This document shows positions 6,001-24,533 of a DNA stretch of 27,930 nt, one piece after another. The stretch's first letter is position 1. Every line of letters starts with the position of its first letter. The notes under the pieces are model-generated. The model saw nothing but the letters and a program-made list of their open reading frames with translations, had not been told where the DNA came from and did not search any database. The DNA is from a virus. Location: the IMG/VR virus record IMGVR_UViG_3300045738_000575, positions 1 through 27,930 of that record, one strand, 5' to 3'. A program made the translations under genes and the position numbers.

Positions 6001-6268
6001 TTTCATCTTCCTCCTTATTTTTATTACCAAAACTAACTTCGGCTTGCATTAATTCTTCTTTCACTATTTTTGCTACTGTTTCTGATATGTTTTCTATTAT
6101 TTCATTGTAGATATCTTGCTTCCAAATCATTTCTAATTTCTGTTCAGGACTCATTTCATTATAAATAATATCAGATATTTCATCTAGAACTTTTTCCATA
6201 TTCAATAAACTAGCAAACGTCCATTCTTTTTCATTCAACAATTCTCTTATTCTTTTTTCTATATTCAT
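5924..6268 (-). CDS. Unknown helical protein between nuclease and primase
   Basis: This encodes 114 residues, very rich in Glu, Lys and Ile, predicted almost wholly helical (MNIEKRIRELLNEKEW at the start, then MSPEQKLEMIWKQDIYNEI). The C-terminal third is polar and low in hydrophobic residues (NKNKEEDENEISEGS) and lies in the 77-base overlap with the primase gene, so its sequence there is constrained by two frames. The ATG overlaps the upstream nuclease stop by ATGA. No cysteine or membrane segment. The family is not recognised; position suggests a replication accessory protein. Confidence 0.55.
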   Translation of the reverse strand: MNIEKRIRELLNEKEWTFASLLNMEKVLDEISDIIYNEMSPEQKLEMIWKQDIYNEIIENISETVAKIVKEELMQAEVSFGNKNKEEDENEISEGSVGWKSLKERTTNEKTDSK

Positions 6269-7131
6269 AGGAAACTCTCCGATTGAGCAACATCACAAAT
6301 ATTAAAATAACTACAATCAGGACAAGTTTTATAATAATATTTAGCATCAAATTGATTCTTTTCATATGCATGAATCATTTTAGCAAACCCATTCATTACT
6401 CCTGTGATGCTTCGCTTCCCAGCCTTTTCTATTTGAAGATAATTTGATTCTGGATAATACCAACCCCAATTACTAATAGGGATATTTGGGTCTAACCCCA
6501 ATTCATGCAATCTTTCCTCTTCACTTCCCTCAAATAATAATTTATAGAATGCCAATTCGCGCCTAACAGAAGTGGCTTTCCAATCTTTATATAAACCTGT
6601 CTTTAATTCAATTGGTATATATTTACCATCTTCATAATACATACGGTCAACAATCCCTTGAAGATGAACAACATAATCTCTCTCTAACTCAATCTTTTTA
6701 TTTATATTATAGGGAATTACTATCTGTGCATCTAACATAACTTCATTTATGATTGGCATAAAATTATCTAATGTATCATTTGCTCTTGAAGTAATAAATC
6801 TATCTGCTTCAAATGTAGACATTGTTCTATATATTTCAGCATGGTCATCAATTGGATGAAGACCAACACAATAATCAAATATTTCTGTATGAGTCATAGA
6901 CTCCGCTTTTTTAACATCGAATTCATCAAAAAATGATTGTCGTGCATTATGCACTTCTGACCCTTTAATCATAAGGGGTGAGGTATCATAAGGTAGTCTT
7001 TGTCTATATGCAAATTCATATTTAGTAGGGCACCATTGAAAGGACTGATAAGAAGATTTAGATATTTTTAATATTGGTTCATCTTCATTTTCAAAGTCTT
7101 TCGGTTTCCATTGATATGTAAATTCTCTCAT
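6265..7131 (-). CDS. Cas4/RecB-like PD-(D/E)XK nuclease with Fe-S cluster
   Basis: This 288-residue protein begins with ISKSSYQSFQWCPTKYEFAY (the typical entry of RecB/Cas4 nucleases, first cluster cysteine C34), followed by the helix GSEVHNARQSF (the His of the GxxxH motif). The catalytic core reads LQGIVDRMYYEDGKYIPIELK: Asp of GIVD, then IELKTG as the (D/E)XK. The C-terminal CPDCSYFNIC gives C270, C273 and C279, completing the four cysteines of a 4Fe-4S cluster. Members cut or resect DNA ends as exonucleases, alone or with helicases. The start at 7131 has GGTGGT 7 bases upstream; an ATG at 7149 would overlap the polymerase gene by 14 bases without such a site. There is no CRISPR locus here, so a replication or end-processing role is more likely than spacer acquisition. 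Confidence 0.8.
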   Translation of the reverse strand: MREFTYQWKPKDFENEDEPILKISKSSYQSFQWCPTKYEFAYRQRLPYDTSPLMIKGSEVHNARQSFFDEFDVKKAESMTHTEIFDYCVGLHPIDDHAEIYRTMSTFEADRFITSRANDTLDNFMPIINEVMLDAQIVIPYNINKKIELERDYVVHLQGIVDRMYYEDGKYIPIELKTGLYKDWKATSVRRELAFYKLLFEGSEEERLHELGLDPNIPISNWGWYYPESNYLQIEKAGKRSITGVMNGFAKMIHAYEKNQFDAKYYYKTCPDCSYFNICDVAQSESFL

Positions 7132-7135
7132 TTTA

Positions 7136-8083
7136 TTACCACCATTCATCTAAAGTTTTTTGTTTGTTATCAAATGTTATATTTACTGTGTCCCATTCCA
7201 TTGCTTTATAAATTGGGTCTGCCTTCTTTACAATGGTGTTAGCATAATGCTGGGTATCTATTTTATAATTATTTAATTCTTCTAATTTAGTTGCAGAAGC
7301 CCACTTTGGGGTTATAATTTTTTCTGTAATTGGATGCATATATGTTTCATCAGAATCTATTATCTTAATAAATACATATGAATCATCAATAGGGTGTTCA
7401 TTATTTTGATTATAACAAATTATTCCCTCAATTCCAGAACCAATTGTTATTCTTTTTCCTTCTATTGTTGTTAACCCAACAATAAATGGCCTTGAGCATT
7501 TTACACAAAAGTGTGTTATACTACCTTTATTTTTAAAGGAAACCTTATCTCGTAATCTCATTGTCTTCTTAGCCAATTTATGTAACTCCTTAAATGTATA
7601 TATCTTTTTACAGGTTATACACATAGCCTTAAGTCGTTCCGGTCTAAACCTACTTCTCTTAACTAATTTACTTAGAGGAGTTTGATTATTTAATACTTGG
7701 TTATATATAATATTACAATACTTATCTATTTCTTCTTTTGGTTTATTATTTACCCACATATCAAGAATATGTAATTGGACTTCTTTTTCTATTGGTGTTA
7801 CTGAAAGTCTTTTTGCTGTAAATCCCGTCATAGTAAATTCATTAGGCTCCAAATACTTTCCGTCTTTCCATGAAATTAAACCGGCGTTTCTATTTTTAGT
7901 ATAGCCTACTCCCAAAGTGCTAAAATACTTTTCTAATTCTAATTTAACAGGATGTTCTTTTAGTTCTAGAAGATTGGGAAATTGTTTTCTAACATGGGTA
8001 TTTAATATGTTTAATGTTTCTTCGGTTTTATCCATTGGCATTTTAACATAGATTGAATCCGTGTGTCCATAAACTACTTTCAT
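7136..8083 (-). CDS. polB: Family B DNA polymerase, C-terminal part (motif C and thumb)
   Basis: The 315 residues begin MKVVYGHTDSIYVKMP, which is catalytic motif C (consensus YGDTDS) at residue 5, so the gene starts exactly where the N-terminal half stops. The first Asp of the motif is His (H7), while the second, metal-binding Asp (D9) is kept. Downstream comes TKNRNAGLISWKDG (the KxRYAG-like palm/thumb element) and TGFTAKRLSVTP. A zinc-ribbon-like insertion (C155, C158, C193, C196) lies in the thumb region. The last residues, KQKTLDEWW (Q308-W315), form a PCNA-interacting PIP box. The ATG overlaps the preceding micro-ORF by ATGA. It must assemble with the product of 8557-10224 to be active. 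Two Trp in place of Phe/Tyr in the PIP box occur in related archaeal boxes (as in QTGLTSWL of Pyrococcus PolB). Confidence 0.9.
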   Translation of the reverse strand: MKVVYGHTDSIYVKMPMDKTEETLNILNTHVRKQFPNLLELKEHPVKLELEKYFSTLGVGYTKNRNAGLISWKDGKYLEPNEFTMTGFTAKRLSVTPIEKEVQLHILDMWVNNKPKEEIDKYCNIIYNQVLNNQTPLSKLVKRSRFRPERLKAMCITCKKIYTFKELHKLAKKTMRLRDKVSFKNKGSITHFCVKCSRPFIVGLTTIEGKRITIGSGIEGIICYNQNNEHPIDDSYVFIKIIDSDETYMHPITEKIITPKWASATKLEELNNYKIDTQHYANTIVKKADPIYKAMEWDTVNITFDNKQKTLDEWW

Positions 8084-8175
8084 TTCAACTCACACTCTTT
8101 ACACATTCTACCTTTTATAGTATATTTAACTACTACATTTTGTCCACAGTTTAAACAATATCTAATTGTTATCAC
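8080..8175 (-). CDS. 31-residue zinc-ribbon microprotein (inside the polymerase split)
   Basis: A GTG-started ORF encodes MITIRYCLNCGQNVVVKYTI followed by KGRMCKECELK. It contains two CxxC knuckles (YCLNCG and MCKECE) separated by 14 residues, the pattern of a minimal zinc ribbon. The start overlaps the previous micro-ORF (GTGA at 8172-8175) and the stop overlaps the ATG of the polymerase C-part (ATGA at 8080-8083), so it is stitched into the train. Function unknown; a structural partner of the split polymerase is one possibility, a decayed mobile insertion another. Confidence 0.55.
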   Translation of the reverse strand: MITIRYCLNCGQNVVVKYTIKGRMCKECELK

Positions 8176-8267
8176 TTAACATCACATCCACAATATTTAC
8201 ATTTATTCTCTTTAGTAACACTTCTAGCGCCTCTATTAAATTGGCAAGTGCAATATTTTACTTTCAT
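8172..8267 (-). CDS. 31-residue Cys-rich microprotein (inside the polymerase split)
   Basis: The ORF encodes MKVKYCTCQFNRGARS followed by VTKENKCKYCGCDVK. Cysteines occur as CxC (residues 6 and 8) and CxxCxC (23, 26, 28), enough for one zinc site. A GGAGTGA sequence precedes the ATG at about 8 bases and the gene begins 6 bases after the stop of the 72-residue gene. Basic residues suggest nucleic-acid or protein binding. Not recognised as a named family; similar in style to its neighbour at 8080-8175, but the sequences do not look like recent duplicates. Confidence 0.5.
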   Translation of the reverse strand: MKVKYCTCQFNRGARSVTKENKCKYCGCDVK

Positions 8268-8273
8268 TCTTCT

Positions 8274-8492
8274 TCACTCCAATTTATCTTCATGATATTT
8301 CGTTCGGGCTCTCGCATTTATCTTCTCACGATTCTCTTCGCGCATCATCTTCCTTTGATACAGGTGTCTGGCACGATAACATTTATCACAGAATCTCTTC
8401 TGTGGAATATAGTCGAAGAAGTTATCGCAAGTCTCACATATTGTGATTTTCTTGTCCATTATCATCCTGTGCATTTCATCAAAGTCCATCAT
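8274..8492 (-). CDS. 72-residue zinc-binding basic protein (inside the polymerase split)
   Basis: After MMDFDEMHRMIMDKK the protein has ICETCDNFFDYIPQKRFCDKC, a CxxC-x13-CxxC zinc ribbon (C19, C22, C36, C39 approximately), followed by a strongly basic helix (YRARHLYQRKMMREENREKI) with many Arg and Lys. This ribbon-plus-basic-helix layout is found at the ends of HNH and other homing-type nucleases and in small DNA-binding proteins, but no HNH or GIY-YIG catalytic residues are visible. The start overlaps the 23-codon ORF by ATGA. It is the longest ORF in the gap between the two polymerase genes, so it may be a relic of, or accessory to, the element that split the gene. Confidence 0.6.
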   Translation of the reverse strand: MMDFDEMHRMIMDKKITICETCDNFFDYIPQKRFCDKCYRARHLYQRKMMREENREKINARARTKYHEDKLE

Positions 8493-8560
8493 TCTTTTTC
8501 ACCCACATTTATTACTATTATAGCACCTGTTTGCATACACTTAAATATATTTGCTTTCAT
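8489..8560 (-). CDS. 23-residue micro-ORF following the polymerase N-part
   Basis: The ORF reads MKANIFKCMQTGAIIVINVG then EKE. It starts in the stop of the polymerase N-part (ATGA at 8557-8560) and ends in the start of the zinc protein (ATGA at 8489-8492). Exact coupling on both sides is the only evidence that it is translated; it may serve mainly to carry ribosomes to the next gene. No family recognised. Confidence 0.35.
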   Translation of the reverse strand: MKANIFKCMQTGAIIVINVGEKE

Positions 8561-10224
8561 AATTCCATCACCTTAAACGCAACACTTCTAATTGCTTCTC
8601 TAGCACTTGCTGTAATTGATGCTGCTAAATCAACATCTGCCCAACCAAATCCTTGATAGCCAATTATGCCATAAAAGGATGCCATTAATCTTTTAACAGC
8701 CATTTGATTATTATTCCACTTAACATACTCACCATCACTCGTAGCCTCCCTCATATTTTTCTTATAAATATCTCTTAAGTCTTTAAGTTCTAATACTGCC
8801 TTTGGCAATAAACCTAATTTATTTGTTTTGTAATAGCGCATATCTCTTACACCCCACCCCTCACGGTCGCTGAAATCTCTTGGGGTCAATAGATTTACCG
8901 CAAATTCAGTTGGGTGTAATGACTTAGTTTCCCATGATATGTTTCTTGCTATCATCATTGATGGATAAAGACCAGCAAAATCAAATGCAGCAACTCCCAT
9001 ATGTAAACCATTTGTGCCTTCCTTTGAAGGCTCGTATATCATAGCGCCTTTATAATGCTGTTTTTCTTCCCTCTTTCCTGTTGGTGCTTTCCATGAGGCA
9101 TTTCTCATAAAATATATACTAGCCATGTTACTAGCATAAAAACACGCATCGAAGGGGGCTATTAGTAGGCGTTGGAGAGCAATAATTGCCTCAGAAGTGT
9201 AGTTTTCTTCATCTATTCTCTTTAGTAAGTCAGTATCTTTCAAGGCATATTGCAAATAAATTTCAGTATCTTCTAACCATGCTCTTTGGAAGAATTCATT
9301 TTTGTCTGGGAATTTTTCACTAACCAATTTCTTTTCGCCCAAAACTAATTCGGCTATATAATCTAATGCAAGAGATGGAAGTGTTCCCCGTTGAGCATCA
9401 TTCCATTGGCGTTCAAAAGCAAGGTCAAGATTCAAAATCAGGCGACCTCTAATAGGTTGGTCTATTGGAGAATAACCCTTAGCCTGTTTTGATAACTTTA
9501 CTCCGTCATTCCAATATACACCTTTAACATCATTGTATGGAGATAATTTTCTAGGGTCAATCCCATTAACATGAAGTCTCTCAATTAATTTAGGCAAATC
9601 GAACTTTGAACCAAACCATGAAATTAACATATCAGGGTCTTGATTATTCAAATCTCTAATAAACCTAATAAGCATCTCTCTTTCAGAATTAAAAACGGTT
9701 ATGTTATTTGCATGGAACAGTCTTTCTGGATTATCCTTTATATCTGGAAACCAAACATATGCTTCATTTCCATTATTAGTAGTCAAAGAAATACAAGTAA
9801 TAGCACCATCATGTTTTCCACCTTGTTGCCACTCTAAATCCCAATACCATTTAACTAAGTCATACTCAGGTATCTTAGTTAACGCATCAATAGAATACCT
9901 ATAATGAAAAGGAACATCTGCCTCAAAGGTTTTATTCCATAACTCTCTAAGTGTTCTAGTATAACCTGGCTTTGGTGGAGTCCAAGTAACCTTTTTCAAT
10001 TTATCACCATTCAAATTAACTGAGCCATCCTTTATATATTCTACTTTAATTGTAAATTTACTTCGGCCATCACTAATTTCTGCCTTTGAGTGTTCTTTAT
10101 CGTCTTCTAAAATATAGAAGTATGGTTGAAAATCATTATAGGGAATTAATTTTTCTTTCCTTTTTCCATCTTCTCGCCATCTTAGAGCGAAATTATTTTG
10201 TTTATCTATTGCACTTATTATCAT
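8557..10224 (-). CDS. polB: Family B DNA polymerase, N-terminal part (exonuclease, motifs A and B)
   Basis: The 555 residues contain, in order, a proofreading domain with Exo I YWDLEWQ (D129, E131), Exo II SWFGSKFDLPKL (D209) and Exo III YALKD (Y326, D330), and polymerase motifs A AFDFAGLYPSM (D415) and B KRLMASFYG (K511-G519). In motif B the usual Asn of KxxxNSxYG is Ala. The protein ends SITASAREAIRSVAFKVMEL, the helix that normally leads within a few residues into motif C. Motif C is encoded in the separate gene at 7136-8083, so this is a genuinely two-gene polymerase with no frameshift that would join the halves; combined length is 870 residues, usual for the family. One-base TAATG overlap couples it to the PCNA gene. 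It is the replicative polymerase by context. Confidence 0.92.
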   Translation of the reverse strand: MIISAIDKQNNFALRWREDGKRKEKLIPYNDFQPYFYILEDDKEHSKAEISDGRSKFTIKVEYIKDGSVNLNGDKLKKVTWTPPKPGYTRTLRELWNKTFEADVPFHYRYSIDALTKIPEYDLVKWYWDLEWQQGGKHDGAITCISLTTNNGNEAYVWFPDIKDNPERLFHANNITVFNSEREMLIRFIRDLNNQDPDMLISWFGSKFDLPKLIERLHVNGIDPRKLSPYNDVKGVYWNDGVKLSKQAKGYSPIDQPIRGRLILNLDLAFERQWNDAQRGTLPSLALDYIAELVLGEKKLVSEKFPDKNEFFQRAWLEDTEIYLQYALKDTDLLKRIDEENYTSEAIIALQRLLIAPFDACFYASNMASIYFMRNASWKAPTGKREEKQHYKGAMIYEPSKEGTNGLHMGVAAFDFAGLYPSMMIARNISWETKSLHPTEFAVNLLTPRDFSDREGWGVRDMRYYKTNKLGLLPKAVLELKDLRDIYKKNMREATSDGEYVKWNNNQMAVKRLMASFYGIIGYQGFGWADVDLAASITASAREAIRSVAFKVMEL

Positions 10225-10967
10225 TATCCCACTCTCGGCGCTAAAACTATTTTTCTATCTATGCCCTTCATCAATAATGGTGCGTCATCTTTCATATACA
10301 AAATTGTTAACCCATTAACAAACTTATGGAAAGGTTGGGCAATCACAAGTGTTGCTGGCTCTCCGATATGAGCAAGCATTGGAACAACTGTTTTATATGA
10401 CTCTTGATTATAATTAGAAGAGATGTGTAATTCTTCACCATCATAATCTAATTTATATTCTCCTGTCCCTACAACTGAACAAGCGTTAACTGCATCAATT
10501 AAGTTATCTCCTAACACAGTTATATTAGATTCCAATTTAGTCTTACCAAAGAAAGGAAAATCTTCTGTAATTTCAGTATCAATTACCTTATGAACCATAT
10601 TAATTGCTGGATGGTCAATAACTAATGGTAGTGACGCTCTCTTTGAGCCTGATTTAAGTAGTATAAAATCTGTTATACATACATTAACAATATCAGTAAA
10701 GGACTTTAAGTATTTAATCATTTTTTCAATTTCAACAACAAAAGTTCCGCCCCCATTTTGTGAATCGGGTTCTTCCACTATGATATTTATGCAACATCCA
10801 CAACAGTTATTAGCATTATAAATAGTCAACACATTATTAGTTAATGAAAGGAAAGCATACTCCCCAATAATTTTGGTTTTCAACCCACTTCCACTCTTAT
10901 ACTTTCCTTTCATTAAGACTGTTTGTAGTGCCCTTTCCATTTCTTTACTAACAACATTAAATTTCAT
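10224..10967 (-). CDS. pcn: PCNA-type sliding clamp
   Basis: The length, 247 residues, is that of a PCNA monomer. The C-terminal strand PLLMKGIDRKIVLAPRVG matches the end of archaeal PCNA, where the last strand reads iapr(v/i). The body shows the two-domain alternation of strands with an interdomain region near FFGKTKLESNITVLGDN. There is an unusual Cys cluster NNCCGCCINIIV near residue 55. As trimeric ring it would tether the polymerase (whose C-part ends in a PIP box) and be loaded by the RFC proteins encoded at 14007 and possibly 15232. It lies directly between the recombinase-like ATPase (ATGA overlap) and the polymerase N-part. Sequence is divergent from cellular PCNA, so assignment rests on length, terminal motif and context. 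Confidence 0.75.
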   Translation of the reverse strand: MKFNVVSKEMERALQTVLMKGKYKSGSGLKTKIIGEYAFLSLTNNVLTIYNANNCCGCCINIIVEEPDSQNGGGTFVVEIEKMIKYLKSFTDIVNVCITDFILLKSGSKRASLPLVIDHPAINMVHKVIDTEITEDFPFFGKTKLESNITVLGDNLIDAVNACSVVGTGEYKLDYDGEELHISSNYNQESYKTVVPMLAHIGEPATLVIAQPFHKFVNGLTILYMKDDAPLLMKGIDRKIVLAPRVG

Positions 10968-21418: not shown

Positions 21419-21495
21419 TCAACCACTAATCCAAATTCATCTAATGTCATTTGTCTGCTGTTTTCCATCGTTGGTGTCAATCTATCGTATTTCAT
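21415..21495 (-). CDS. 26-residue micro-ORF after the JAMM gene
   Basis: The ORF reads MKYDRLTPTMENSRQMTLDE then FGLVVE, starting in the JAMM stop (ATGA at 21492-21495) and ending in the next start (ATGA at 21415-21418). The coupling on both sides is the only evidence of translation. The MTLDEFG segment resembles a short linear motif more than a folded domain. No family recognised. Confidence 0.35.
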   Translation of the reverse strand: MKYDRLTPTMENSRQMTLDEFGLVVE

Positions 21496-21968
21496 TCTTC
21501 TTCCTCCATGAATATATCATAGTGAGTATATTGGGAATATTCTTCCAATAAATTGATTCGCGCAATTTGCTTATTCCCTATCACTATTGCATCTTGTAAA
21601 TGCAATTTCCATGTGTTAATAGTGTTTTGGTCTGTGCTACTAAAATATGCCTCACCAAATGGATGAGTGTGAATCCAACATTTGATGGGCAATTTCATTC
21701 TTTGGCCTCTAGTTAATTCTGCCTCTTGTCCTTCAAAGGATACAAACGATGGTGTGCCAACACTACAATAAGCATTCCCTCTAGAATCAATAATAACCTG
21801 TATTTCTCTTGCAATATCAAAGGAAAACATTGAGTGTTCCCATATACAATCTAAGAAATCACGCGAATCATATTTTCCATCACATGACTCAAGCATCGCT
21901 TCTATCTCAAATTTCCAGAAATCACCACTATCGGTTTCATGTAAATTAGACTTTGGAACATCCATCAT
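21492..21968 (-). CDS. JAMM/MPN (JAB) metallopeptidase
   Basis: The 158-residue protein has the full JAMM zinc motif CWIHTHPFGEAYFSSTDQ: H100, H102, P103 and S110-x-x-D113, plus an upstream Glu (E55 in AREIQVIID) that would polarise the water. Fold elements on either side (AYCSVGTPSFVSFEG, KLHLQDAIVIGNKQ) fit the MPN domain. Known prokaryotic members remove ubiquitin-like or sulfur-carrier proteins from targets, and phage members process tail proteins. Here it lies two genes after an E1-like enzyme (23033-23617), so a link to the archaeal ubiquitin-like (SAMP) system of the host is plausible. All catalytic residues are present. No ubiquitin-like protein is found in this window. Confidence 0.85.
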   Translation of the reverse strand: MMDVPKSNLHETDSGDFWKFEIEAMLESCDGKYDSRDFLDCIWEHSMFSFDIAREIQVIIDSRGNAYCSVGTPSFVSFEGQEAELTRGQRMKLPIKCWIHTHPFGEAYFSSTDQNTINTWKLHLQDAIVIGNKQIARINLLEEYSQYTHYDIFMEEEE

Positions 21969-22231
21969 ATATACACCTTCATAACTATGATTCCTAAAAT
22001 TATTACCATTAAACCTATTTGAAAATACACTATTGGGCTATCCTTCTGTATGCCCTCAGTATTAACAGGCCATACATTATTAGTTACATGAATATACTTT
22101 AGTGGTATTGCTGTTACCGTTCTCTCATATCCATTCTTTTCTAAAAAGGCACTTGCTTCAACGGCAGTATCTCCTCTATTTGCGCTTTTAAGCATTAATT
22201 CTATTTCTTTATCTTCCCATCTTCTATGCAT
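21965..22231 (-). CDS. Myb/SANT-like protein with C-terminal membrane anchor
   Basis: The first 50 of 88 residues, MHRRWEDKEIELMLKSANRG followed by ASAFLEKNGYERTVTAIPLK, match the three-helix Myb/SANT pattern (W, ExE in helix 1, then a basic third helix RTVTAIPLKY), also repeated in the next gene upstream. The last 21 residues (SPIVYFQIGLMVIILGIIVM) form one membrane segment with KVYI at the end, so the protein would be tail-anchored with the DNA-binding domain in the cytoplasm. The start lies in an 8-base ATGCATAG overlap with the three-repeat gene. It could tether viral DNA to the host membrane; inference only. Confidence 0.55.
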   Translation of the reverse strand: MHRRWEDKEIELMLKSANRGDTAVEASAFLEKNGYERTVTAIPLKYIHVTNNVWPVNTEGIQKDSPIVYFQIGLMVIILGIIVMKVYI

Positions 22232-23021
22232 ATGTCTTCACCTTTTTATTGAGTTTAGCAATCTTCTTTTTTAACCTATTCTGTTTCTTGGTTCTAATAT
22301 AGAGAAATACTCTATTAAGTTTTTTGGATTCCCATTCTTTAATCTTTAACCTATTCATCGCAATTTCGGCTACATCTAACCTATTTGAAATTTCATTCAG
22401 AATTAAACGCTCATATCTAACTGCACATACGCCATATCCCCTACCCATTTCTTTTCTAATAAAGTCTACTGATGCACCTTTCCAAACCATTAATAACTTA
22501 ATGTCTTCTTCTTTAGTCCAATGGCCTCCTTGACGATATAATCGTTCCGATTCCGTTGGCATGGCCGCTTGTGGCAATACCTTTTGTTTTAAACCCGCCT
22601 CAAATGAAATCTTCACTACTGCCGCTGCTTCTGCTTCTTTCCTTGATTCATCAAGCAGGGCTTGTCCAAGTCTATTAGAATGACTTACTGCAAGAGAATT
22701 TGGTGTTCTCTTAATGCCCATCTTTTTACTTATTATAGCAGCGATTTTAACCCATGATTTACCTTGTTCTATTCTAAGTTTGTTAATTAATGCTATTTCC
22801 TTTTTACTATAAAGAACCCTTTTGTGTTTGTGCATTCGTTTAATCTTTAAATCAACAATCTTTCTGCTAGGGTCTAATTTAAGTAGTTTCTTTCTGCAAG
22901 CCATTGAGGTTCTATTATTCCCAAAAACCTCAGACAAGGTTACAGAACATTCCTGATATGTATTCCCTACTCTTTTCATTTCTTTCAACATTACTTCTTC
23001 ATTTTTTGTCCATCTTTTCAT
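22224..23021 (-). CDS. Protein with three Myb/SANT-like repeats
   Basis: Three tryptophan/aromatic helix-turn-helix repeats are seen in 265 residues: repeat 1 (about 2-50) KRWTKNEEVMLKEMKRVGNT; repeat 2 (about 68-118) LYSKKEIALINKLRIEQGKS followed by WVKIAAIISKKMG; repeat 3 (about 165-212) GHWTKEEDIKLLMVWKGAS. Each has a hydrophobic-acidic helix 1 (WTKEED), a middle helix and a recognition-like helix with Asn/Arg (RTSMACRKKL, RTPNSLAVSHSNRL, GVCAVRYERL). A coiled, very basic C-terminus follows (KKQNRLKKKIAKLNKKVK). Such multi-repeat Myb proteins are known from eukaryotes and some viruses; here it is probably a transcription or DNA-organising factor next to TFB. A membrane-bound single-repeat relative follows. 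Confidence 0.62.
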   Translation of the reverse strand: MKRWTKNEEVMLKEMKRVGNTYQECSVTLSEVFGNNRTSMACRKKLLKLDPSRKIVDLKIKRMHKHKRVLYSKKEIALINKLRIEQGKSWVKIAAIISKKMGIKRTPNSLAVSHSNRLGQALLDESRKEAEAAAVVKISFEAGLKQKVLPQAAMPTESERLYRQGGHWTKEEDIKLLMVWKGASVDFIRKEMGRGYGVCAVRYERLILNEISNRLDVAEIAMNRLKIKEWESKKLNRVFLYIRTKKQNRLKKKIAKLNKKVKTYA

Positions 23022-23032
23022 ATTTATCTCTC

Positions 23033-23617
23033 CTATATATTTAGGAATAACTTATCTGTTACTTCATCCCCATTAAACCATCGTTGAATCCATTGTGCGC
23101 CTACACCAGCAATTGCAACATGAGTGAAATGAAGGTCTTTTGTATTTCTACTATTATTAAATTCCTCTCCTTGACATGAAAAAGAACCCGTTGGCCCACT
23201 AAGGAAGGTATCTGATAACTTTTCTTCCGTTTTATATGAAATCATCGCCCCATTCCTACCTTGCGCCCGTAAATCCACCCAACTCGCCCTACATTTGTTA
23301 GCAAATCCAAGCCTATAAACGGCTCGCCTAACATCTAAATTGTCTGCACAACAAATCACTAAATCATAACCTAATAATTGTTTTTCCGCAAGAATAGGAT
23401 AAGGCATTCCTTTAACAGAAGCCATCCTTAGCATAATTCCCGCGACCTTATGTTTACTAACATCTTGTTTAAGAAAGTTTTGATATGAAAGGTTCTTTTT
23501 CTCAACCTTATCAGGGTCAGCAATCCAAATTTCATATTGTTCTGTTTGATTGAGCAATTGAACTAAATAACTTCCAATTCCTCCTACTCCTACTATTAAT
23601 ATTTTTCTTTTAGTCAT
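23033..23617 (-). CDS. E1/ThiF-like adenylyltransferase
   Basis: The 194 residues have a Rossmann nucleotide site ILIVGVGGIGSYL (G10, G12, G13, G15), followed by IWIADPDKVEKKNLSYQNF (D34, D36, N42) and VSKHKVAGI (Lys of the family), and CCADNLDVRRAVYRLG (D92), corresponding to motifs that bind ATP-Mg and the C-terminal glycine of a ubiquitin-like protein in ThiF, MoeB and E1. In the usual NLxRQ the Arg is Tyr (NLSYQ). A Cys in GSFSCQGEE (C148) could be the thioester residue. The start at 23617 follows AGGGAT by 6 bases and overlaps the TFB stop by eight. The enzyme lacks a C-terminal rhodanese or E2 domain. It is probably functionally linked to the JAMM peptidase at 21492-21968. Confidence 0.8.
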   Translation of the reverse strand: MTKRKILIVGVGGIGSYLVQLLNQTEQYEIWIADPDKVEKKNLSYQNFLKQDVSKHKVAGIMLRMASVKGMPYPILAEKQLLGYDLVICCADNLDVRRAVYRLGFANKCRASWVDLRAQGRNGAMISYKTEEKLSDTFLSGPTGSFSCQGEEFNNSRNTKDLHFTHVAIAGVGAQWIQRWFNGDEVTDKLFLNI

Positions 23618-24533
23618 GTTTAATCCCTGATATAAATTCATCTATTGTCATTGTTAATAATTGTTTCTTAGAAATCCCCATAACTGATAATATCTTTCTA
23701 AAACTGCTTCGTAAAGATACATCCACAATACCCAATGCATCAGCAATCTGTCTTTGGGTATATCCTTGCATTCCTGCCTTTTGTCTTATTATTGATGAGA
23801 TATAAATTGATGCACCCAAATATGTTCTTGTATAGGTATAATCATATTGTTCTAAATAATAATTTAAATGTTCAGCAACCCGCCTTGCATCGTATGTAAA
23901 GTGCCTATCTGCCTTTAAATCATAGCAAATTCTTTCTGTCCATGATGATATAGATATTTGATGTAATAACCACGGTTTCCCTAAATGCCTTGCAGCCTTC
24001 TTTACAAATTTAGAAGAGCGAGAAGCACTAACATCATTTTCTTTTGCGAGTTGTTGAATACTAATTGCTATTCCATTCTCTTTCATAACATAATATACTA
24101 TGCCTACCGCTCTAATATCTAAATCAAAACCAGACATTACTCTCTTTTTATGCAAGGTGCGATAATAAGACTCCACTCTTTCTTTCATTGAAGGAGTCGG
24201 ATTAAACTTAGATAATACTAAATTACATGATATTATCCCTGCAGATAACGCATCATATTGAGAAATCCTTGCCGTTCTTTTTAACCTATAAACTAAGGTT
24301 CTATTAAAATTATTTCTGGCGGCTGCTCTCCCAAATACAGAACCTAATAGTCCTCTATCTGGTAATCTTGTTGATTCAATTGCATTACCACCAATATCAT
24401 AATCTGTTAAGTTTACTGATTGTCTGCTTTCAAAAATATTTCTTACTATGATAAAACCACAGTTTACACATTCTAGTTCGCCCATTATTTCATTCCAATT
24501 AAATTCGTCGTTGTTACATTCTTTGCAATTCAT
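23610..24533 (-). CDS. tfb: Transcription factor B (TFIIB-like)
   Basis: The 307 residues show the complete TFB architecture: N-terminal zinc ribbon (C3, C6, C22, C25; GELECVNCGFII), a B-reader-like segment containing DRGLLGSVFGRAAARN, and two cyclin repeats (for instance SAGIISCNLVLSKFN to KENDVSASRSSKFVKKA, and VAEHLNYYLEQYDYTYTRTY to YTQRQIADALGIVDVSLRSS). The last part YTQRQIADALGIVDVS is the helix-turn-helix of repeat 2 that contacts BRE DNA beside TBP. A virus-encoded TFB can redirect the host RNA polymerase to viral promoters. It is close to the cellular length (about 300). No TBP is seen in the window, so host TBP would be used. Confidence 0.93.
   Translation of the reverse strand: MNCKECNNDEFNWNEIMGELECVNCGFIIVRNIFESRQSVNLTDYDIGGNAIESTRLPDRGLLGSVFGRAAARNNFNRTLVYRLKRTARISQYDALSAGIISCNLVLSKFNPTPSMKERVESYYRTLHKKRVMSGFDLDIRAVGIVYYVMKENGIAISIQQLAKENDVSASRSSKFVKKAARHLGKPWLLHQISISSWTERICYDLKADRHFTYDARRVAEHLNYYLEQYDYTYTRTYLGASIYISSIIRQKAGMQGYTQRQIADALGIVDVSLRSSFRKILSVMGISKKQLLTMTIDEFISGIKHD

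Follow-up and report, generated by a model that had tools for sequence, protein, structure and literature searches.

The family B DNA polymerase (PolB) of Methanobacteriales is reportedly split into two subunits, as Kelman is said to have described in 1999, and PolB in two parts is also encoded by viruses. Here we analysed a stretch of 27,930 bases with 33% G+C (the window; IMG/VR virus record IMGVR_UViG_3300045738_000575), in which PolB is encoded by two genes, PolB-N and PolB-C, separated by several small open reading frames (ORFs). The PolB of Methanobacteriales resembles it as an archaeal PolB in two subunits; however, it is the cellular PolB3, and intein loss has been proposed as the origin of its split (PMC4104785), whereas the window's group bears no trace of an intein. 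The gp43 polymerases (43A/43B) of Aeromonas phages 44RR and 25 and of Acinetobacter phage DLP3 are likewise encoded by two genes with variable DNA between them, namely about 50 nucleotides (nt) in 44RR, a GIY-YIG gene in phage 25 and seven small genes in DLP3, and 43A and 43B of phage 25 are purified together and show activity (PMC2988022). In contrast to the window, these phages have bacterial hosts and their polymerase is interrupted within the fingers, between motifs A and B; this T4-like cut site is not found in the window, where the cut lies between motifs B and C, at the palm turn before motif C. The window PolB is at most about 25% identical to phage PolBs. An earlier note on this DNA, made from the sequence alone, had pointed to split PolBs of other systems as precedents, which is apt in that such splits are known elsewhere, but not as to the cut site of the Aeromonas and Acinetobacter gp43. 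In DLP3 (L107 in our collection), the halves lie about 2 kb apart with seven or more small genes between them, an independent slot-like layout at another cut site.

The profile of Aobingvirus (Aoguangviridae, Magrovirales; Poseidoniales virus YSH_150918, ON649702) by the International Committee on Taxonomy of Viruses labels N-terminal and C-terminal domain (NTD and CTD) genes of PolB (PMC10768690). According to the figure legend, by which the comparison was made, its PolB comes in two separate parts, N-terminal and C-terminal, accompanied by PCNA, RFC, primase and TFB, and the replication gene set is shared with the window; the profile text, on the other hand, is silent on the cause and the variability of the split (PMC10768690). 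The window carries, from the Magrovirales gene set, PolB in the form of NTD and CTD genes, PCNA, the RFC small subunit, a primase (weak, E=0.003) and a ligase, while no capsid gene was identified in it. Judged from this replisome gene set and the NTD/CTD PolB, the window virus appears to be magrovirus-like. The split PolB of the virus group is already annotated and thus not new in itself. The breakpoint, the continuous sister clade and the hypervariable slot between the halves were not found in a literature search that did not reach Philosof 2017, Zhou 2023 and Prabhu 2025; subject to these three papers, the breakpoint, the continuous sister clade and the dynamics of the slot are what the present analysis adds.

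The replicative PolB of this magrovirus-like archaeal virus very probably consists of two separately translated subunits, which would form one palm without a peptide bond. The operon on the minus strand comprises, in order, an AAA ATPase, PCNA, PolB-N, four small ORFs, PolB-C, a Cas4-like nuclease, a primase and an ERCC4 nuclease. The exonuclease motifs and motifs A, B and C of family B occur in order across the two halves, as indicated by Pfam and by motif conservation, and the Pfam DNA_pol_B profile is shared out between them, PolB-N matching profile positions 36-195 and PolB-C 222-413. Pfam and the motif alignment agree with the earlier note in placing the exonuclease motifs and motifs A and B in the upstream gene and motif C at the opening of the downstream gene. 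PolB-N ends with ...AREAIRSVAFKVMEL* and PolB-C starts with MKVVYGHTDS. Compared with the continuous homologue L101 (...FKAQELGYKVIYGHTDS), one Gly is lost and the start Met stands in place of Tyr; almost nothing is missing at the joint, as had been noted before.

Pattern scans of viral contigs yielded 118 contigs of relatives once duplicates were removed, including 97 that are split with both ends visible, 13 more whose PolB-N ends at the joint, and five with a continuous PolB (L101, L102, L110, L111 and L112). In the split contigs, PolB-N ends on approximately ...AAFKVxEL, some being a few residues longer, and PolB-C starts with MKVVYGHTDS or a near variant; the joint codon is ATG in 93 of the 97, TTG in two, GTG in one and ATC in one. 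The continuous gene reads ...FKAQELGYKVIYGHTDSIF across the joint, and the split form lacks the Gly and has a start codon in place of the Tyr. Because the same break recurs in 97 contigs and 13 more PolB-N end there, chance and misassembly are ruled out, and the split of a real PolB just before motif C, as first described from the window, is borne out. The split PolB is fixed in a large group of marine archaeal viruses. The intact PolB of the sister clade sits within the same gene order as the split genes, and the L101, L110 and L112 viruses share with the window the YGHTDS motif C and about 42% identity to PolB-N. In contrast, their PolB is a single gene of 813-821 amino acids (four complete copies), with neither the slot nor the CxxC insert of the thumb. 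A motif scan spanning the joint found no further continuous genes, a weak null because the pattern is too strict and misses L101 (...SIF), and a PolB-C search of the phage collection gave no match. The genome_contigs scan returned a single relative, L184 (NZMJ01000151.1), which is also split; it is binned in a metagenome-assembled genome of Maricaulis, a bacterium, and is probably a viral contaminant of that bin.

The AlphaFold2 model of the continuous L101 protein (predicted local distance difference test score, pLDDT, 90.6) matches the KOD, Tgo and 9N polymerases with template modelling scores of 0.7-0.8, which gives the continuous homologue a PolB fold. In this model a helix (534-557) is followed by a turn (558-560) and the motif C strand (561-566), and the cut maps to the turn, which lies in the palm behind the helix that follows motif B and adjoins the catalytic hairpin. 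When PolB-C of the window was modelled alone from a shallow alignment, the motif C segment had a pLDDT below 50 and much of the thumb above 90; as a hint only, given that alignment, the low-confidence segment would fit palm strands that need PolB-N to fold. Motif C itself (window 8056-8071) reads YGHTDS, with His for the first Asp of the usual YGDTDS and the second Asp kept. This His variant is common to all split and continuous relatives, and the halovirus HSTV-4 retains YGDTDS.

The ratio of nonsynonymous to synonymous substitution rates (dN/dS) between close relatives is 0.04-0.24 for PolB-N and 0.03-0.21 for PolB-C, and this strong purifying selection on both halves makes a two-subunit enzyme most likely. 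Twelve split contigs of 75-98 kb have one PolB-C locus each. Meanwhile, a Shine-Dalgarno-like motif precedes PolB-C in 92 of 97 contigs, as against 27% at random positions. That ATGA is so frequent where PolB-C starts follows in part from the code itself, since Met-Lys gives ATGAA, and the openness of the reading frames was therefore used as the control. The frame ending on the TGA that overlaps the PolB-C start has a median of 59.5 open codons, compared with 5 and 7 in the other frames. Because this frame is open far longer than the other two, the upstream ORF truly terminates on the PolB-C start, and translation of PolB-C would thus likely be coupled to that of the preceding ORF.

A PolB tree of 97 sequences, with HSTV-4 as outgroup, separates the continuous from the split forms with support of 0.987 and 0.996, and a tree of AAA, PCNA, Cas4-like nuclease and primase, from which PolB was excluded, separates them at 0.999. 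The PolB of HSTV-4 is also continuous. Since the trees separate the two groups, the synteny is shared and the outgroup gene is also in one piece, we infer that a single fission at the base of the split clade would be the simplest reading. The thumb insert with CxxC pairs, which is zinc-ribbon-like and lies at about residues 155-200 of PolB-C in the window, is shared by most split genes of the clade. Its gain after the fission is probable, given that the continuous genes and the YAHTDS split clade (L071, L124, L174) lack it.

The DNA between the halves, put at about 0.47 kb with four ORFs in the earlier note, is indeed a gap of 473 nt with ORFs of 23, 72, 31 and 31 amino acids. It has stop codons in all three frames, and the four ORFs cover 98.7% of it with junctions of −4, −4, +6, −4 and −4 nt. 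Among the split relatives, the gap ranges from −4 to 1376 nt with a median of 359, and it exceeds 100 nt in 90% of the contigs, compared with 49% at PolB-C/Cas4, 20% at PCNA/PolB-N, 19% at AAA/PCNA and 8% at ERCC4/helicase; two further gene pairs, with a conserved small gene between the partners, stand outside the comparison. The slot is not the sole variable junction, PolB-C/Cas4 being also often long. Four relatives (L036, L043, L065 and L141) have no insert at all. In addition, close relatives (L065/L148/L131, L141/L170, L031/L041 and L049/L055) match up to the PolB-N stop and again once PolB-C begins, whereas entire ORFs distinguish them between these points. Clustering sorts the 250 slot ORFs into 67 groups, and 69 of these ORFs have relatives elsewhere in the set of contigs. 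Endonuclease genes are present in the slots of two relatives, an HNH gene in L093 (phrog_2214, 3e-8) and an endonuclease VII-like gene in L095 (phrog_1035, 6e-14), both placed directly after the PolB-N stop, and the near-identical L094 is without them. These comparisons show the gap to be a slot of tandem, mostly overlapping small ORFs, where small genes come and go as whole units and both halves of the enzyme stay intact. The edges of the inserts suggest exchange at short overlapping stop/start junctions: small genes would enter and leave by recombination at ATGA-type junctions, at times aided by endonuclease genes. It is more doubtful that the break serves as a standing gene-acquisition slot, in which cassettes are swapped and endonucleases (HNH, endonuclease VII-like, HUH) home to the sequence between motifs B and C; each cassette would then be bounded by overlapping stop/start codons and bear a ribosome site for the next gene. 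The slot of L087 (1738-2079) holds a PemK/MazF-like toxin gene (E=1.8e-17). In L049 (5410-5754), a slot ORF of 114 amino acids contains the Rep endonuclease domain of circular Rep-encoding single-stranded (CRESS) DNA viruses (Viral_Rep, E=4e-17), and exactly this ORF is missing from the close relative L055.

In the two-subunit reading, the halves would associate without a peptide bond and build one active palm, and the split would go back to a single fission. Several points weigh against this picture. The palm is severed right beside the metal-binding motif, which could leave the assembled enzyme weak; HSTV-4 is very distant (branch 4.1), and the root of the PolB tree is not firm; the collection scans sample just those contigs that bear the query patterns; and ORF-chain scoring favours −4 and −1 junctions, by which the junction counts are biased upwards. 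The group provides a natural, clade-wide replicative PolB cut inside the catalytic palm, beside the metal-binding motif, and the continuous sister group serves as its counterpart. Both the two-piece assembly of an active site and the way in which gene fission evolves thereby become directly testable. The window-type PolB also offers a ready split-polymerase design, and the whole small-gene swaps at one fixed point give a clear view of gene entry and exit in virus operons.

Among the other explanations, an assembly or sequencing error is a known failure mode of metagenome contigs; however, it is excluded by the identical joint in 97 contigs, and a decayed polymerase or pseudogene is ruled out by the conserved active-site motifs and by dN/dS well below 1 in both halves, so that we give this explanation practically no weight. 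Very improbable, too, is that an intron, an intein or trans-splicing removes the gap from the RNA or the protein and so yields a single polypeptide. A group I intron does occur within 43B of phage 25, some archaeal PolBs have an intein site at motif C, and intein loss has been suggested behind the Methanobacteriales split (PMC4104785). However, the length and content of the gap are freely variable, four relatives are gapless, and a start codon is kept at the PolB-C joint although the encoded residue would differ. An Rfam scan of 7900-8800 gave zero matches at E up to 5, that is, no group I, group II or other known intron RNA in the gap. Meanwhile, the comparison of relatives for intact, intein-bearing and split PolB, which the earlier note had proposed, found mostly split genes and five continuous ones but no intein-bearing copy among the 118 contigs, and the ends of both halves are clean in all relatives, without intein fragments or intein-like extensions. 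An intein or intron origin is thus not upheld. The pol-c intein site presumably lies inside motif C, not upstream of it.

The fission would have begun either with an insertion that has since been replaced or with a small frameshift by which a Gly-Met junction became a stop that overlaps a new start. We regard as possible, though short of probable, that a free-standing HNH-type homing endonuclease inserted before motif C and later decayed or was replaced, leaving the 72-residue ORF as its remnant; this follows the 'genes in pieces' model of T4-like phages, bears solely on the origin and does not conflict with two subunits. The different endonucleases of L093 and L095 at one point, absent from L094, are in line with it, as are the weak HNH similarity of slot ORF 2 and the GIY-YIG gene between 43A and 43B of phage 25. 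Slot ORF 2 resembles the N-terminal part of the L013 slot protein, and it is possibly an HNH endonuclease remnant, although no HNH core was seen. However, of the 97 slots only two carry a clear endonuclease of such kind, both on recent terminal branches of the tree; several slots are without an insert, and the endonuclease of phage 25 may have invaded an already split gene (PMC2988022). A base loss in Gly-Met codons (GGA ATG AAA to GA ATG AAA), with other genes moving in later, is an origin that we likewise entertain without favouring it. It would yield exactly the overlapping junction of L036 and L065; these two and L043 read GAATTAGAATGAAAGTA, with stop and start overlapping and nothing between, and only one residue is lost relative to the continuous gene. 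On the other side, L065 and L141 are nested among close relatives with inserts, which makes their bare junctions look like secondary deletions, and the continuous relatives have Gly-Tyr, not Gly-Met. The ancient insertion put forward in the earlier note is therefore possible as the cause, but it is not told from a small frameshift or stop-restart fission, because most slots hold unrelated small genes and four have no insert.

The features of the locus are listed in Table 1.

Table 1. Genes and slot of the split PolB locus, in window coordinates.
Feature	Position	Strand	Length	Content	Basis
PolB-N	8557..10224	-	555 aa	Exonuclease domain, motif A (palm) and motif B (fingers); ends in helix before motif C	Pfam DNA_pol_B_exo1 E=8.6e-9; DNA_pol_B 2.6e-20; phrog_262 5.5e-70; motifs kept across relatives
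PolB-C	7136..8083	-	315 aa	Motif C YGHTDS at start, remaining palm, thumb with CxxC...CxxC insert	Pfam DNA_pol_B E=1.2e-9; phrog_262 5.6e-6; 30-relative alignment
Sliding clamp (PCNA-like)	10224..10967	-		Upstream neighbour	phrog_947 processivity factor 2.5e-5; order conserved
Cas4/RecB-like nuclease	6265..7149	-		Downstream neighbour	PDDEXK_1 2.4e-13; order conserved
Slot between halves	8084..8556	-	473 nt	Length and content vary among relatives	
Slot ORF 1	8489..8560	-	23 aa	Starts within PolB-N stop (ATGA)	Kin in slots of 5 other contigs
Slot ORF 2	8274..8492	-	72 aa	Zinc-finger-like	phrog_15471 (HNH family) E=0.004, weak; clusters with L013
Slot ORF 3	8172..8267	-	31 aa	Cysteine-rich	Family in slots of 12 contigs, including distant clades
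Slot ORF 4	8080..8175	-	31 aa	GTG start, two CxxC; stop overlaps PolB-C start by 4 nt	phrog_14399 3e-4

Elsewhere in the window, a ThiF/E1-like gene (23033-23641, E=7.5e-17) has a JAB-like gene nearby (21492-21968, E=3e-4, below the Pfam cut-off), and the pair may represent a ubiquitin-like module in the virus. In addition, the window encodes a Myb-like DNA-binding protein (22224-23021, E=2.8e-7) and a TFB-like protein (23610-24533); the resemblance of the latter was recognised by eye from a zinc ribbon plus repeats, with no Pfam TFIIB match.

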